The notes under the pieces: model-generated
Databases searched by the model: none
Seen by the model: only the letters and a program-made list of their open reading frames with translations
Told to the model about the DNA's origin: nothing
Assembly: GCA_010671905.1 (NCBI GenBank)
Contig: JAAHII010000001.1
Coordinates: 2,666,001-2,730,000 of the forward strand
Origin: Leptolyngbya sp. SIOISBB
GTDB taxonomy: Bacteria > Cyanobacteriota > Cyanobacteriia > Phormidesmidales > Phormidesmidaceae
Length of the DNA: 64,000 nt
Reading direction: 5' to 3'
Shown here: in pieces, positions 47,376 through 54,849 of the stretch
How positions within the stretch are numbered: position 1 is the stretch's first letter
Layout: each line of letters opens with the position of its first letter
Translations under genes and position numbers: made by a program

Positions 47376-49010
47376 TTAAGGGAAAGGTACCAAAGCTCTC
47401 CGCTCTTCGATCTCGACCCACAACTGACGAGCAATATTGCGAATCTCAATTGGAATGCGCGGCTCTGGTGCATCCAGCAATGACTCTGGGAAAGATTCTG
47501 GAATGGGTCGAATTTCAGGAATTTGACTCGGCTTGTTCTTCGCCAAAGTAAGCTGTAGTTTTGGTCTGCCATCGCTGAAGTTTGTTTTTTCACTCCCAGA
47601 CGCTGAACCAAAGAGTTGGAAGGCATGAGTGAACCCAACAACATTGCTCACCGCATCCGTCTCGTACCCTCTCAGATAAGGGACGGTATCATATCCAAAA
47701 GCATTAAAGTATTCATCACTATCAATGTATGCATCGATTTCGGCATCAAATCCACCGGCTGCAATGATTTGGATATGTTCAGAAATCTCTTCATAGCTGA
47801 CAGGAGCCCGCCCCAATAAATGCTTGAAGTTCAACTCAATCACTGTGATATTAGGGAATTTGTCCCAAAAAAGGGTTTGGTAGCGCTCCGACTTGGCTAA
47901 TTGACGAATAAACTCACTGACTCTCAACTCTCCGTTACGCAGCTGTGATTCTGCCTTGACAAGTCGCTCACTCTCCATAAAGTGAGCATTGCCAAACACT
48001 TGTTTGTAGGCTGCATTGATGATCAAATCGAGGTTTTCAGGAGTTTCAGAGCCTAAAGTCAACTCTAAAGGCTGATTTTGTCCCAAAGCGCTACGATACC
48101 TTGCGGCAAGAGATTTGTTCACATCTTCAGGGTATGAGGCAACCTGAATTTTGGGACCAGTGGTCTTAGCTGTTGTGGGTTGTTTCTTCGCTGCAGCCTT
48201 ATCACTCGGAGGTAAACCTTTCGCTGCAGATTTAGTCTTTTTGATAGTGGACTTCGGTTCAGCGGATTTAGGAGGCGTTGGTAGCGCTATCGGCTGTGGT
48301 TCGGGCAAAACACTGATGAAAGGGATATCACTGGGATTACCCTGAGCCAAACTTGTTTGGAGCTTAGGGGAACCGTCGCTAAAGAGCGATAACTCACTGC
48401 TACAAGCTGTCCCAAGGAGAGGAAAAGCGTGGGTAAAACCAACGGTACGACCACCTACTCTAGAGTCATAAGCTCTCTGATAGGGGACTTGATCATTACC
48501 AAAAGCTTGCACATATTCATCACTATCAATATAAGAGTTTATTTCCGCCTCAAATCCGCCTTCTGCCAAGATTTGAATATGTTCGGAAATCTCTTCGTAG
48601 GATACTGGAGCACGACCCAGCAGTTGCTTGAAGTTGAGCTCAATGACTGTCACATTGGGATACTTATCCCAAAACAAGTCACGGTATCGCTCTGACTGGG
48701 CCAACTGTCGAATAAAGTCTCGAACGGTAATTTCCCCGCCCCGCAACCGAGACTCGGGCTCTCGCAGGCATTCACTTTCCATTAAGTGAGCGTTACCAAA
48801 TACCTGTTTGTAAGCCGCTTTAATAATCAAGTCAACATTGGCTGATGCGGTCACATCTTTGGTCAGCTTTACGGCCATCCCAACGCTAACTGAGTCACGG
48901 TACTTTGCAGCCAATACCGCATTAAGTCCTTGATCTGACGTACTACTACCAACAAAAGTTGTTGACTGCGCAGGCTTACTGTTTAATATGCCAAACAAAC
49001 TTTGAATCAT
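47376..49010 (-). CDS. Two-domain phycobilisome linker protein
   Basis: A 544-residue protein with two PBS_linker_poly (pfam00427) domains, about residues 55-200 and 325-470. Each has the rod-linker core INAAYKQVFGNAH, a version of IELNFKHLLGRAPVSYEEIS, and SDEY..AFG...VPY..GY. Each is preceded by a short adapter LAA(K/R)YR, and a Lys/Ala/Pro-rich linker (235-290) joins the halves. No CpcD-type capping domain and no ApcE phycobiliprotein domain. Normal rod linkers have one such domain in about 270-290 residues. It lies downstream of the three-domain linker, separated by a perfect 19-bp palindrome, and ends in a terminator. Probably organises phycoerythrin/phycocyanin discs. Confidence 0.88.
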   Translation of the reverse strand: MIQSLFGILNSKPAQSTTFVGSSTSDQGLNAVLAAKYRDSVSVGMAVKLTKDVTASANVDLIIKAAYKQVFGNAHLMESECLREPESRLRGGEITVRDFIRQLAQSERYRDLFWDKYPNVTVIELNFKQLLGRAPVSYEEISEHIQILAEGGFEAEINSYIDSDEYVQAFGNDQVPYQRAYDSRVGGRTVGFTHAFPLLGTACSSELSLFSDGSPKLQTSLAQGNPSDIPFISVLPEPQPIALPTPPKSAEPKSTIKKTKSAAKGLPPSDKAAAKKQPTTAKTTGPKIQVASYPEDVNKSLAARYRSALGQNQPLELTLGSETPENLDLIINAAYKQVFGNAHFMESERLVKAESQLRNGELRVSEFIRQLAKSERYQTLFWDKFPNITVIELNFKHLLGRAPVSYEEISEHIQIIAAGGFDAEIDAYIDSDEYFNAFGYDTVPYLRGYETDAVSNVVGFTHAFQLFGSASGSEKTNFSDGRPKLQLTLAKNKPSQIPEIRPIPESFPESLLDAPEPRIPIEIRNIARQLWVEIEERRALVPFP

Positions 49011-49177
49011 CTTTGAATTCCAAAAGCGGGAGTCTTTAAAAAGCCTTTATCAATCCAAATAAAGTTGGATTTTCGGCAAATCGAATTACGAAAGAAATAA
49101 CAAGTTCTAAGCAAGGCTCTCTTCAATAGAGATTACCTATAAAACCATAAGCTAATCCTATCAACCGAATCAATTTC

Positions 49178-49222
49178 AGTCAATCAATGCAACAGCTTAT
49201 ATTGCTGTTGCATTGATTGACT
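49178..49222 (-). repeat. Perfect 19-bp intercistronic hairpin between linker genes
   Basis: AGTCAATCAATGCAACAGC (49178-49196) pairs perfectly with the segment 49204-49222 around the loop TTATATT. It abuts the stop codon of the three-domain linker (49223). No T-tract follows on the minus strand, so it is more likely a stabilising or attenuating intercistronic structure than a full terminator. Confidence 0.85.
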
Positions 49223-51478
49223 CTAAGCTTCCGGAGCTTTAGATAATTCAGTGATCGGATTATAAAAATCGCCTAGCAACGCACCATCCAATTGTTTATA
49301 GACATCGCTAGAAATTGATTTGTCGCTGCTGGAAGCACCGCGTAATAACTGGAATGAATTCAGGAAGCCTGAGATTTTTTTGCCAACCTGGGTCTGATAT
49401 CCGCGGTAGTAAGGAACGGTTGCCGTACCAAAGGTTTTGAAGTACTCATCACTATCTAAATAAGCGTCAATTTCAGCTTCAAATCCACCTGCTGCAAGGA
49501 TTTGAATATGCTCAGAAATTTCTGCTGAAGTTTCAGGCGATCGCCCCAGCAAATGCTTAAAGTTCAGTTCGATAAACCGCAAGTTCGAGACTCTTTCAAA
49601 AAATAAGGTGCGATAACGATCCGATTTCGCTAACTGCCGCACAAAGTCCAAAACAGTAATTTGCCCATCGCGCAATTTAGACTCAGCATCTGCACAACGT
49701 TCACTTTCCATCAGATGAGCATTACCAAAGACTTGTTTGTAGGCTGCTGCAATTATTACATCAAGTTGCTCTAAAGAAGTGTTATCGACCAGCACTATCG
49801 GCACATTGTCGGCAAAGGCATTGGTATGAGGTTTAGTAATAGATGGTAAACGACACTCTTCGCCATATTTGCCAAGACCCAAAGCTCTCGCCAAATTAAA
49901 CCCTTTGGGATTAAAGACAGGTGCTTGCTGAACCTCAAGCTTTGTGAGCAAGTCTTTCTGAATCTGAGGCTTACGGTTGAACTCAGCAACGGATAGGTCA
50001 CTATTGCAAACATCTTTATTCAGCTTCTGAATGCGATTGTAGCCCGCAACGTTTTTCCCTATTTGACTGGAGTAGCTGATGTAATAAGGAACGGTCTCTT
50101 CGCCAAAGTTTTGACGATACTCTTCACTGGTAAAGTAAGAGTCAATCTCTGCCTCAAATCCTTTCTCAAGGATTATGTCAATATGCCGAGCCACCTCTTG
50201 AAAGTCATCCGGTGCCCGACCTAAGAGATGTTTGAAATTCAACTCGACGGCTCTAACATTAGAACAGGTCTCCAAGAACCGTGAACGATATAACTCCGAC
50301 TGTGCTAATTCACGCACAAAACCCTTGACAGTGATTTTCCGGTTGATCAGGTTAGATTCCGCTGTTGAAAGTCGCTGACTTTCGAGGATATATGCATTCC
50401 CAAAGACTTGCTTATATGCGGCCTGAATCACTAAATTCACTTCCTCTTCAGACGCTCCGCTTGCCAACTTGACGGGTTGACTCTTGCGGGCTATCGGAAA
50501 AGTTGCTGAGGCTTCACGCGCCTTATATTGCCTGAGCCAATCGTTGGGAGACAGGGGCGTCGCTAAAAATTTCGACGACTTATATCCAGGAACACAACTC
50601 AAGTCATTAGAAACATATCTTTCTGGAGGGGCCTCAGGTGTAGGTAAAGGCGACAGTGTCAAGAGGGAATCGGGTACAGACGAAAGTGCCTGAATGGAAG
50701 TAGGCTGATTGGACAATAGCGATTTCTGCAACTGGGGTTGCGGGCTTCCAACCATCGCTTTGTCACTTGTCGAAACCCCTCGCAATAGCTGGAAGGAATG
50801 GGTAAACCCGGCAACGCTTTTTCCAGTTTGGGTTTGATACCCCCGATAGTAAGGAACAATATTAGTTCCAAAGGTTTGGAAATATTCATCACTGTTGAGG
50901 TAAGAGTCGATCTCAGCCGATAATCCGCCTGAGACTAAAATCTGAATATGCTCTGAGATTTCTGCTTGGTTTTCAGGGGCACGTCCCAGCAGATGCTTAA
51001 AATTCAACTCAACCGTTCGCAAATTCGTACAACTTTCAAAGAATAAGGTGCGATATCGTTCTGACTGGGCCAGTTGACGAATAAACTCCAGTACAGAAAT
51101 TTCCCCACTTCTTAGCTGTGACTCTGCTCCCAGCAGCTTCTCACTCTCCATGAGGTAGGCATTCCCAAACACCTGTTTGTAAGCAGCATTAATGACGACA
51201 TCTGCTTCTGTCGGTGATGCATTGGCAGTCAGCTCAACGAGCTGAGCATCCACTAAAGCATTGCGATGAGCATCACCAGCAGGAGCCACCTGGAGCGACT
51301 CGACAACTGAAAGCTGGCCTTTAAGGGTAACCGATTCAACAACCTGTGCCCGTGCCTTAGCAACTTCTTCCTGGGCTTTCTTTGCCCTTACCACCGCAGC
51401 TAAATCAAAGCCTTCGGGATTAAATTTCTTACGATTTTCCCTAATGGCTGAAGGGCGGAATAAAGTGTTGTTGATCAT
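49223..51478 (-). CDS. Three-domain phycobilisome linker protein
   Basis: A 751-residue protein with three pfam00427 rod-linker domains at about residues 90-235, 342-480 and 570-725. All keep AAYKQVFGNA, (V/I)ELNFKHLLGR(A/S)P and a VPYY motif. An adapter FNP(E/K)GF(D/N)LA occurs at residue 19 and again at 522 before domain 3, suggesting growth by duplication of adapter-plus-domain units. It lacks CpcD and ApcE domains. A GAGG ribosome site precedes the ATG at 51478. Multidomain linkers of this kind are known from Gloeobacter violaceus, where they are associated with bundle-shaped phycobilisomes. The cpeBA genes lie 1.6 kb upstream in the same direction. Confidence 0.9.
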   Translation of the reverse strand: MINNTLFRPSAIRENRKKFNPEGFDLAAVVRAKKAQEEVAKARAQVVESVTLKGQLSVVESLQVAPAGDAHRNALVDAQLVELTANASPTEADVVINAAYKQVFGNAYLMESEKLLGAESQLRSGEISVLEFIRQLAQSERYRTLFFESCTNLRTVELNFKHLLGRAPENQAEISEHIQILVSGGLSAEIDSYLNSDEYFQTFGTNIVPYYRGYQTQTGKSVAGFTHSFQLLRGVSTSDKAMVGSPQPQLQKSLLSNQPTSIQALSSVPDSLLTLSPLPTPEAPPERYVSNDLSCVPGYKSSKFLATPLSPNDWLRQYKAREASATFPIARKSQPVKLASGASEEEVNLVIQAAYKQVFGNAYILESQRLSTAESNLINRKITVKGFVRELAQSELYRSRFLETCSNVRAVELNFKHLLGRAPDDFQEVARHIDIILEKGFEAEIDSYFTSEEYRQNFGEETVPYYISYSSQIGKNVAGYNRIQKLNKDVCNSDLSVAEFNRKPQIQKDLLTKLEVQQAPVFNPKGFNLARALGLGKYGEECRLPSITKPHTNAFADNVPIVLVDNTSLEQLDVIIAAAYKQVFGNAHLMESERCADAESKLRDGQITVLDFVRQLAKSDRYRTLFFERVSNLRFIELNFKHLLGRSPETSAEISEHIQILAAGGFEAEIDAYLDSDEYFKTFGTATVPYYRGYQTQVGKKISGFLNSFQLLRGASSSDKSISSDVYKQLDGALLGDFYNPITELSKAPEA

Positions 51479-51956: not shown

Positions 51957-52077
51957 TTAGCGTTTGCTTGGTTGTTGTTGGTTTATTACCGACTCCAGGC
52001 GCAATAAGGCGCTGATCGCTGACTCGCGAACATGGTTCTCAATCGACTCGTCATCAATCATGGTTTGTAAGGCTATT
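51957..52077 (-). pseudogene. HEAT-like C-terminal gene remnant cut by an IS1-type element
   Basis: The minus strand encodes about 39 residues ending at a stop at 51957: IALQTMIDDESIENHVRESA followed by ISALLRLESVINQQQPSKR. The spacing and composition look like a last HEAT repeat. Upstream the frame runs straight into the right-oriented terminal repeat of the IS1-type element at 52078. Phycobilin lyases (CpcE/F, CpeY, CpeZ types) are HEAT-repeat proteins often located beside cpeBA, so this may be the tail of such a lyase; too short to prove. Confidence 0.4.
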
Positions 52078-52870
52078 GGTGCTGTTCTAGAACTGTGTAT
52101 GAGGCAAGATGAACATTGTTCCATGGTTTTAGAACCCGTCTGTTGTCCGCACTGCCAAACTACAGAGGGCGTCAAAAACGGCAAAAGCGCTGAAGGTCAA
52201 CAGCGTTATCGCTGCCGGAATCCCGACTATGTCCGCGCCTCCTTGATCCTCAACTATCCCTATTGCGGTCACGTCTCTGCGGTACAACAACCAGTCAACG
52301 ATCTGGCCATAAACGGGAATAGCAGCCGCGGTACCGCCCATGTGCTGCAGATTAGCCCCACGACGGTGATTAAAGCACTCAAAACGACACCATCCCTTTG
52401 AGCCGGTTAATCGGAGGACTCTAGAACGTCGCCAAAGCTCACATGTCGAGCTAGCAGATGGATGAGATGTGGAGCTTTAGTCAGTCGAAGCGATCGCAAC
52501 GATGGCTCTGGCAAGCGATTGATCATCACAGCAGTGAAGTCCTCGCCGATATGCTCGCCCTCATGAAGAGAAGGCCCTCTCTACCCTCAGAAAATGCCTG
52601 CCCCCCCTTTGGCATGCAACATTCTATAACGACAGCAGGGGCGCTTACTCACGGCAACTCGACTCCTAACAGCACACCCTGGGCAAAACCAATACCCAGA
52701 GAATTGAGCGTCAGCGTCTCACTTTACGCCCTCGCATCAAGCGCCTGGCCCACAAAACGAGTGCTTCTCGAAATCGGTGTTGATGCACGACACCGTGATT
52801 GGGATGTTTATTAACCGCGATGAATTGGGTTGTGTAATCTGATGGCTTGCCACAGGTCTAGAACACTACC
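52078..52870 (+). mobile_element. IS1-family insertion sequence, decayed
   Basis: A 793-bp element. The left end begins GGTGCTGTTCTAGAACTGTG; the right end read inward begins GGTAGTGTTCTAGACCTGTG, an imperfect terminal inverted repeat. An InsA-like frame starts near 52123 with a zinc-finger pattern (CCPHCQTTEGVKNGKSAEGQ, QRYRC) and ends in ISPTTVIKAL. InsB begins near 52458 (MDEMWSFSQSKRSQRWLWQA) and continues in shifted frames to the C-terminal FSKSVLMHDTVIGMFINRDE equivalent. Frameshifts and a gap in InsB make it inactive. No target-site duplication is visible. Confidence 0.85.
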
Positions 52871-53114: not shown

Positions 53115-53612
<498 letters not shown>

Positions 53613-53690
53613 TTAAATCTCCAAGTTTGTTTCAGACCAAAGTTGACGAGTTGGTTGAAGTATTTCAGCACAAGCTGACTTCATAAGTGC

Positions 53691-54428
<738 letters not shown>

Positions 54429-54849
54429 CCTCTAGGCAGCTTGCTTAGCTAGGTGCTTAACCAGATTCTCCTTCACCATTAGTTACTGAATCGCACTCAA
54501 TGCCAAGACAAATGGGGACGCCAGGCAGCTTGCATTCGGCTAATCTCATTCATGAGGTGGTAGACACGAGCGGCGTGGTAATTTCTAGGTCACCGCCTCC
54601 CACCTCGGTTCGTCAAACCCTGGTCAGGGTAGGCTTATGGCCTTCCCCGCCATAGTTTTGTCCCTGTACCTTGAGCAGCGCCTCTTTCCAAACGACTAGG
54701 GACTGTCATCATTTAGCGGCTGAATCCCTCTGCTGCCAAGCGATCAGCCCCTAGCTAGTTGATTGGGTGCGGGCGCGGTAATGTCCGTCGTCAAAGCGTT
54801 CTAGATTTAATTGATGACGCGCCCTAGATGCTGTGTTGAATTCTGAGTG

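Follow-up and report, generated by a model that had tools for sequence, protein, structure and literature searches.

What antenna would be built by phycobilisome linkers that carry several linker domains, and where would such proteins come from in a cyanobacterium outside the Gloeobacteria? The question is raised by a locus of Leptolyngbya sp. SIOISBB (assembly GCA_010671905.1; 8.34 Mb in two contigs). The window analysed here comprises 64,000 nucleotides of contig JAAHII010000001.1 (positions 2,666,001 to 2,730,000; G000:C1:2666001-2730000), and in it two adjacent genes downstream of the phycoerythrin genes cpeB and cpeA encode a 751-residue protein with three PF00427 domains and a 544-residue protein with two. 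We call these proteins W3 and W2, respectively, and the PF00427 domain REP. An earlier note on this DNA had proposed that the two proteins would extend the multidomain-linker architecture of Gloeobacter violaceus, or mark a new way of stacking rods. On our analysis, W3 and W2 are probably structural linkers that tether three and two phycoerythrin hexamers and that are added to an ordinary antenna, and W3 is, by its sequence marks, a member of a conserved, wider and little-described family of long linkers.

Domain content of W3 and W2

Pfam finds PF00427 in three stretches of W3 (E 1.9e-146) and in two of W2 (E 6.9e-98). All five REPs are full-length and score 164-169 bits against a curated cut-off of 28.7, which places them in the PF00427 superfamily. 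Neither PF01383 (the CpcD domain) nor PF00502 is found in either protein at E≤1, so that the domain counts given in the earlier note, and its statement that a CpcD cap and an ApcE domain are missing, are borne out. A REP profile built from 24 domains gives two weak extra stretches in W3 at a loose threshold, and three REPs, as Pfam does, at a stricter one. The resulting layout is neither that of the rod linkers CpeC, CpeD, CpeE and CpcC, with one REP and a C-terminal CpcD domain, nor that of ApcE, with its N-terminal PF00502. Against CpcG models, the best stretch of both proteins starts no earlier than model position 31, versus position 1 or 2 in four CpcG-type proteins of the same genome; the cut-offs of these models are not decisive, because those four proteins fall below them too. 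NCBIfam offers no naming model for W3 or W2 (only the CpcG models match, below cut-off), a hydrophobic, CpcL-like C-terminus was not seen by eye in either, and the N-terminal 44 residues of W3 gave no meaningful match in the PDB (best E 0.82).

The REPs are joined by arms of 103-145 residues and preceded by short motifs. LAAKYR and LAARYR stand ahead of the two W2 REPs, as had been noticed earlier; the FNP(E/K)GF(D/N)LA repeat attributed to W3 holds before REP1 and REP3 and fails before REP2, where NDWLRQYKAREA is found instead. Residues F19, N20, P21, G23, F24, D25, L26 and A27 of W3 are invariant in eight aligned rows, as is W314 in the segment before REP2.

In solved phycobilisomes each PF00427 domain occupies the cavity at the centre of one hexamer. 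W3 would accordingly hold three hexamers, and W2 two, on one flexible chain. Lacking CpcD, the chain would have no usual hexamer-to-hexamer stacking module at its end, and lacking a CpcG N-terminus, a CpcL-like C-terminus and an ApcE module, the proteins would not be obvious core or membrane anchors. Because these stacking and anchor modules are missing, we infer that W3 and W2 bind strings of phycoerythrin hexamers that would be added to, or would bridge, CpeC/D/E-type rods on a conventional core, and would not replace the normal rods. The tethering of hexamers is supported by CpcN, Glr1262 and Glr2806, which are themselves multi-REP proteins without CpcD and sit in several hexamers.

A conserved family of long linkers

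The family is marked by an N-terminus of the form MINNTLFRP...FNPxGFDLA and by REPs of an inner type. W3 has both marks; W2 has inner-type REPs and no FNP motif, and is kin to the family and not a member. A scan of named genomes gave 35 loci, ten with a full long-linker gene and one (L042) with a partial gene; the remaining 24, of which 14 are picocyanobacterial, hold different linkers with one, two or three REPs. Four REPs are found in proteins of Okeania SIO3I5 (979 aa), Okeania SIO3B5 (1021 aa), Leptolyngbya Heron Island J (984 aa), Leptolyngbya PCC 7375 (998 aa), Leptothoe kymatousa (984 aa), MAG.088 (992 aa), Adonisia turfae (998 aa), a Xenococcaceae MAG (1003 aa) and, from the search in the order of Xenococcus, L114 (1021 aa), and seven in those of Xenococcus PCC 7305 (2007 aa) and Xenococcus MO_188.B8 (2009 aa), which share the FNP motif and not MINNTLFRP. 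We know of no linker with more REPs than these seven; CpcN has five. Pfam counts four, four, seven and seven REPs in the four long proteins scanned, and it agrees with the profile for the six proteins checked. A seven-REP protein exceeds the CpcG-model cut-offs, apparently by summing seven domains. The seven-REP genes lie at L039:5917-11940 and L043:9980-16009.

Seven longer relatives share 58-62% identity with W3, which is the only three-REP member that we found. Ahead of REP1 stands FNPxGFDLA or a close variant, and likewise ahead of REP3 in seven of the eight named four-REP proteins, the Xenococcaceae MAG being without it there, as is L114; a W-containing segment precedes REP2 and a more variable Q..Y segment REP4. 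The C-terminus of W3 aligns with the arm that follows REP3 in its relatives and then stops, REP4 and a conserved tail being absent, and REP4 appears to have been lost.

Among 388 genomes of the class, a match was found in 24 at E≤1e-58 and in 8 at E≤1e-100. Of the 8, G191 proves to have a two-REP linker, and the long family is present in the other seven, namely the genome studied here and six of genus g2, one of which (G371) is partial. Within the taxonomic family this amounts to 7 of 63 genomes and two of 14 genera, and the window's genus adds no further case among its five other genomes. Across the order to which Xenococcus PCC 7305 belongs, 14 of 291 genomes match at E≤1e-110: two have the seven-REP form, three a four-REP form, and nine match chiefly the C-terminal part (the seven retrieved of these are six two-REP linkers and one protein, L122, with fewer than two REPs). 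A plasmid collection gave two weak partial matches, covering 11% and 4% of the query.

The seven-REP tail of Xenococcus ends in LNKWR, which is common to two-REP linkers beginning with MVSTF. A second multi-REP family (L025:13468-15090 in the genome studied here; L057, L074, L085 and L092) has two or three REPs, mostly an MV(S/N)TF start and often a tail ending in NKW(R/Q); such a start or tail occurs in 16 loci, some from the same genomes.

Domain trees and the origin of W3 and W2

The first of two trees holds 97 domains from 52 proteins of our choosing over 145 columns; 50 of its 93 inner branches are starred, and the outgroup does not form one side of any branch. The second omits eight rows (ApcE, CpcG-type and L028), some of which have long branches, and its bootstrap is not fully settled. 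The groups compared in the approximately unbiased (AU) tests were named after the first tree had been seen. Inner domains of the long-linker family form one group (98/94, second tree). W3 REP2 clusters with the REP2s of six relatives (98/86, first tree), and in that tree the REP1s and REP3s do not sort by position. A clade of its own (100/99, both trees) is made up of the final REPs of the four- and seven-REP proteins; in the first tree it falls on the same side as CpeC-type and MVNTF-type domains, and for this reason the long linkers appear to be fusions between two kinds of REP.

The two window proteins differ in history. The W2 domains pair as sisters (94/86) and are nested among one-REP linkers (99/96; first tree), with 72.6% DNA identity over 361 bp, and W2 is on this evidence a lineage-specific doubling of a one-REP linker. 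Forcing the three W3 domains into one clade is rejected by the AU test (p 0.00295), as is a single clade of all five window domains (p 1.4e-05), and because of the former W3 is judged not to be a recent in-gene duplication. The earlier note had set recent in-genome duplication against its own proposal; this objection holds for W2 (94/86) and not for W3 (AU p 0.003). It could still be that both proteins are dispensable or decaying, recent duplicates of ordinary linkers that leave the shape of the antenna unaffected. The doubling of W2 would fit, as would the loss of REP4 from W3, the transposase remnant upstream of it and a degenerate 3' fragment of a gene resembling W2 behind a diverged cpeBA; we nevertheless regard this as unlikely, given the AU result for W3, the grouping of its REP2 with those of relatives, the long open frames, and a family common to Okeania, Leptolyngbya-type and Xenococcus genomes.

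Descent from Gloeobacterial linkers is a separate matter. In the PDB, both W3 and W2 match CpcN best (730 and 627 bits), and a kinship with CpcN based on that score was entertained and then dropped after the domain tree, the AU test leaving the union unrejected. The rows used as reference correspond over their full length to the PDB chains of Glr1262, Glr2806 and CpcN, and in part to that of CpcJ, and their domains form one clade (100/99, first and second tree) that nests among CpcC, CpeD and CpeE types and picocyanobacterial two-REP domains (99/97; 100/96), apart from the inner group. Forced union of inner and Gloeobacterial domains gives an AU p of 0.232, which is not decisive. Whole-protein scores sum over repeated domains, identity to CpcN is 40-44% (G123), and neither CpcN nor the Glr proteins have the FNP motif. 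A descent of W3 and W2 from Gloeobacter linkers is thus not supported by the trees, and we think it very unlikely that W3 derives from CpcN or Glr linkers or has a common multidomain ancestor with them.

The remaining antenna genes

Genome-wide there are 24 REPs: three in W3, two in W2, two in the L025 two-REP linker, three in ApcE and one in each of 14 further proteins. Eight of these 14 carry CpcD, and we take them, from likeness, to be two cpeC, two cpeD, three cpeE and one CpcC type; on this reading single-domain cpeC/D/E types, for which the earlier note advised a search, are present. Four of the six single-REP proteins without CpcD are CpcG-type, matching the CpcG models from position 1 or 2 below cut-offs; two of these four, and the short linker L028, end by eye in a CpcL-like hydrophobic C-terminus. 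L029:10798, the remaining single-REP protein, is a one-REP linker kin to the long-linker family. ApcE has PF00502 and three REPs, and a three-REP ApcE goes with a tricylindrical core without C/C' cylinders. Because CpcD-bearing cpeC/D/E, four CpcG/CpcL-type linkers and a three-REP ApcE are encoded, the base antenna of this genome appears to be conventional. The genome's own CpcB is labelled by NCBIfam; a PDB search at E≤1e-95, too strict a limit, gave no match for it. Elsewhere in the genome, a CpcL-like linker with a hydrophobic C-terminus lies directly behind three CP43/IsiA-like genes (L030:3450-8139; one confirmed by PF00421, the other two by eye).

These genes bear on whether W3 and W2 could, in the manner of Glr1262 and CpcN, organise rods side by side into bundles or staggered chains, which would make a non-hemidiscoidal antenna outside the Gloeobacteria. 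The gross design is the same (CpcN with five REPs, Glr1262 and Glr2806 with three, all without CpcD), the inter-REP arms are similar in length (98-110 residues in CpcN, 104-150 in the Glr proteins), and CpcD-type caps stand near the homologue in three of eight loci, a feature required by the CpcN model, in which single hexamers are capped. The domains are not kin in the best trees, however, the three-REP ApcE implies a core without the C/C' cylinders that carry the Glr1262 bundles, and conventional rod and rod-core linker types are encoded. We consider side-by-side rods rather unlikely.

Link to phycoerythrin

The position of the linkers beside cpeBA, in a cyanobacterium outside the Gloeobacteria, stands as first described: cpeA and cpeB are named by NCBIfam, and the window's CpeB matches phycoerythrin beta chains of solved structures end to end. 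Leptolyngbya Heron Island J (L034) and Leptothoe kymatousa (L040) carry the four-REP gene within an array, cpeC-cpeD-[4 REP]-cpeE-cpeE-cpcD...cpeBA, and in Okeania SIO3B5 (L041) a diverged cpeBA on the opposite strand is followed by a CpcC type, a CpcD cap and the four-REP gene. CpeB was searched for in 18 distinct genomes (22 handles, four pairs being identical by coordinates), a sample that is non-random and not independent by descent. A CpeB match of at least 63% identity occurs in nine of 11 genomes with a long linker, versus one of seven without; the exceptions with a long linker are G026 (apparently MAG.088, a draft, with no CpeB match) and Xenococcus PCC 7305. Of the six genomes in the window's genus, one has both phycoerythrin and the long linker and five have neither, which suggests that they are gained or lost jointly.

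Several observations weigh against W3 and W2 as tethers of phycoerythrin hexamers. Only three of eight annotated loci of relatives have cpeBA near the long linker. None was found in L033, L036, L038, L039 and L043 within the stretch examined; L033 and L038 are short, and L036, L039 and L043 span 19-23 kb without cpeBA or cpe linkers. The best CpeB match of Xenococcus PCC 7305, with its seven REPs, is 52% at E≤1e-40, the level of the CpcB of the genome studied here; as no match exceeds this, the cargo there may be phycocyanin. An AlphaFold model of W3 (eight rows; pLDDT 48.0, pTM 0.28) shows only three readable helical regions and adds no structural support beyond them. Within the window, a transposase remnant breaks the linkage of cpeBA and W3, and since REP4 and the conserved C-terminus are also missing, W3 could be on its way to decay, though its frame is intact.

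The locus

All four genes are on the minus strand, and cpeBA ends about 1.6 kb ahead of W3 (Table 1). In the transposase remnant PF03811 is above its cut-off, and PF12759 and PF03400 are slightly below theirs. The hairpin after W3 is terminator- or stabiliser-like, without a T run, and because it directly follows the stop codon W3 and W2 may be separate transcripts. The DNA is HIP1-rich, as had been stated: GCGATCGC occurs 73 times in the 64 kb, versus about one expected under equal base use.

Table 1. Features of the linker locus (positions in the window)
Feature	Position	Strand	Evidence or remark
W2, two-REP linker gene (544 aa)	47376..49010	-	ORF + Pfam
W2 REP2	47670..48041	-	PF00427, 167.5 bits
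LAARYR motif ahead of W2 REP2	48093..48110	-	residue 301
W2 REP1	48474..48845	-	PF00427, 164.1 bits
LAAKYR motif ahead of W2 REP1	48897..48914	-	residue 33
Perfect 19-bp hairpin	49178..49222	-	immediately 3' of W3 stop; -36.4 kcal/mol, z -7.11
W3, three-REP linker gene (751 aa)	49223..51478	-	ORF + Pfam
W3 REP3	49403..49774	-	PF00427, 169.4 bits
FNPKGFNLA motif ahead of W3 REP3	49889..49915	-	residue 522
W3 REP2	50081..50452	-	PF00427, 167 bits
NDWLRQYKAREA segment ahead of W3 REP2	50510..50545	-	from residue 312
W3 REP1	50843..51217	-	PF00427, 167.1 bits
FNPEGFDLA motif ahead of W3 REP1	51398..51424	-	residue 19
IS1-type transposase remnant (InsA/InsB-like pieces)	51964..52814	+	between cpeA and W3
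cpeA (C-phycoerythrin alpha)	53115..53609	-	NCBIfam NF058506, 301.6 vs 225 bits cut-off; PF00502
cpeB (phycoerythrin beta)	53691..54245	-	NCBIfam NF058508, 320.6 vs 275 bits cut-off

The genome holds two further copies of cpeBA. One (L029:13334-14593) shares 97% DNA identity with window positions 53116-54375 and encodes an identical CpeB protein; the other (L029:2677-3775) is diverged, with 70% identity in CpeB, and behind it lies the degenerate 3' end of a W2-like linker (L029:2147-2303; 78% DNA identity, 157 bp). A dispersed repeat of about 138 bp (window 54690-54828) has whole or partial copies in L025, L027, L028, L029 and L030 of the same genome.

Comparison with known linkers and implications

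CpcN of Anthocerotibacter panamensis (8imn) resembles W3 and W2 in having several PF00427 domains on flexible arms without CpcD, and differs in that its domains fall in another clade (the union not being rejected) and lack FNPxGFDLA. According to passages of PMC10696076, it strings five phycocyanin hexamers into a staggered chain on a heptacylindrical core in a thylakoid-free host, and is exclusive to Gloeobacteria, having been disfavoured once thylakoids arose; besides Aurora, these passages report no CpcN homologue above 50% identity, a limit under which the identity to CpcN found here falls. Glr1262 and Glr2806 of Gloeobacter violaceus (9k9w) have three PF00427 domains without CpcD, as does W3, and differ in forming their own domain clade and in that the genome studied here has CpcG-type linkers. 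They are described, in parts of PMC12525769, as unique to Gloeobacter and as linking phycocyanin hexamers to the core where CpcG is lacking, with bundles on the C/C' cylinders and Glr1262 replacing the missing CpcG on a pentacylindrical core.

Multidomain CpeC-like linkers of Leptolyngbya (UniProt U9W1D6 and U9W8A0) have about three linker domains and are found beside single-domain linkers (PMC11976284). Compared by description, they and the W3 family are probably the same or sister families; going by the genus, they might be the proteins of L034 or L037. That account (2025), in an aside in its methods, treats them as CpeC fusions within individual hosts, later acquisitions of unclear function. 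The W3 family differs from it in being common to Okeania, Leptolyngbya-type and Xenococcus genomes and in its position-specific REP2 and last REP. MpeD of marine Synechococcus is, in the portion of PMC2246261 that describes it, a phycoerythrin linker with two linker domains, and is in this respect like W2; the picocyanobacterial two-REP proteins, taken to be MpeD-like by their layout, differ from W3 and W2 in having other domains and, by eye, a CpcD-like C-terminus. CpeC, CpeD and CpeE are like W3 and W2 in having a REP and in lying in phycoerythrin gene clusters, and unlike them in having one REP and a CpcD domain. Heron Island J shows chromatic acclimation (PMC3916487); the word linker is absent from the main text of that paper. 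In the openly licensed literature we found no paper on linkers in Xenococcus, Leptothoe or Okeania (for Okeania, by titles and the beginnings of abstracts).

It is a tentative possibility that a string-type antenna, with three to seven REPs and with phycoerythrin or phycocyanin hexamers chained or rods cross-linked, arose independently outside the Gloeobacteria. If so, the phycobilisomes of these organisms would be larger than, or shaped unlike, the hemidiscoidal standard, and the published view that limits chain linkers to thylakoid-free lineages would be overturned. The presence of the family in Leptolyngbya PCC 7375 and Xenococcus PCC 7305, whose names are those of a culture collection, would make the Gloeobacter-only view directly testable by electron microscopy, and a family of three to seven REPs would suggest more than one origin of repeated-REP linkers.

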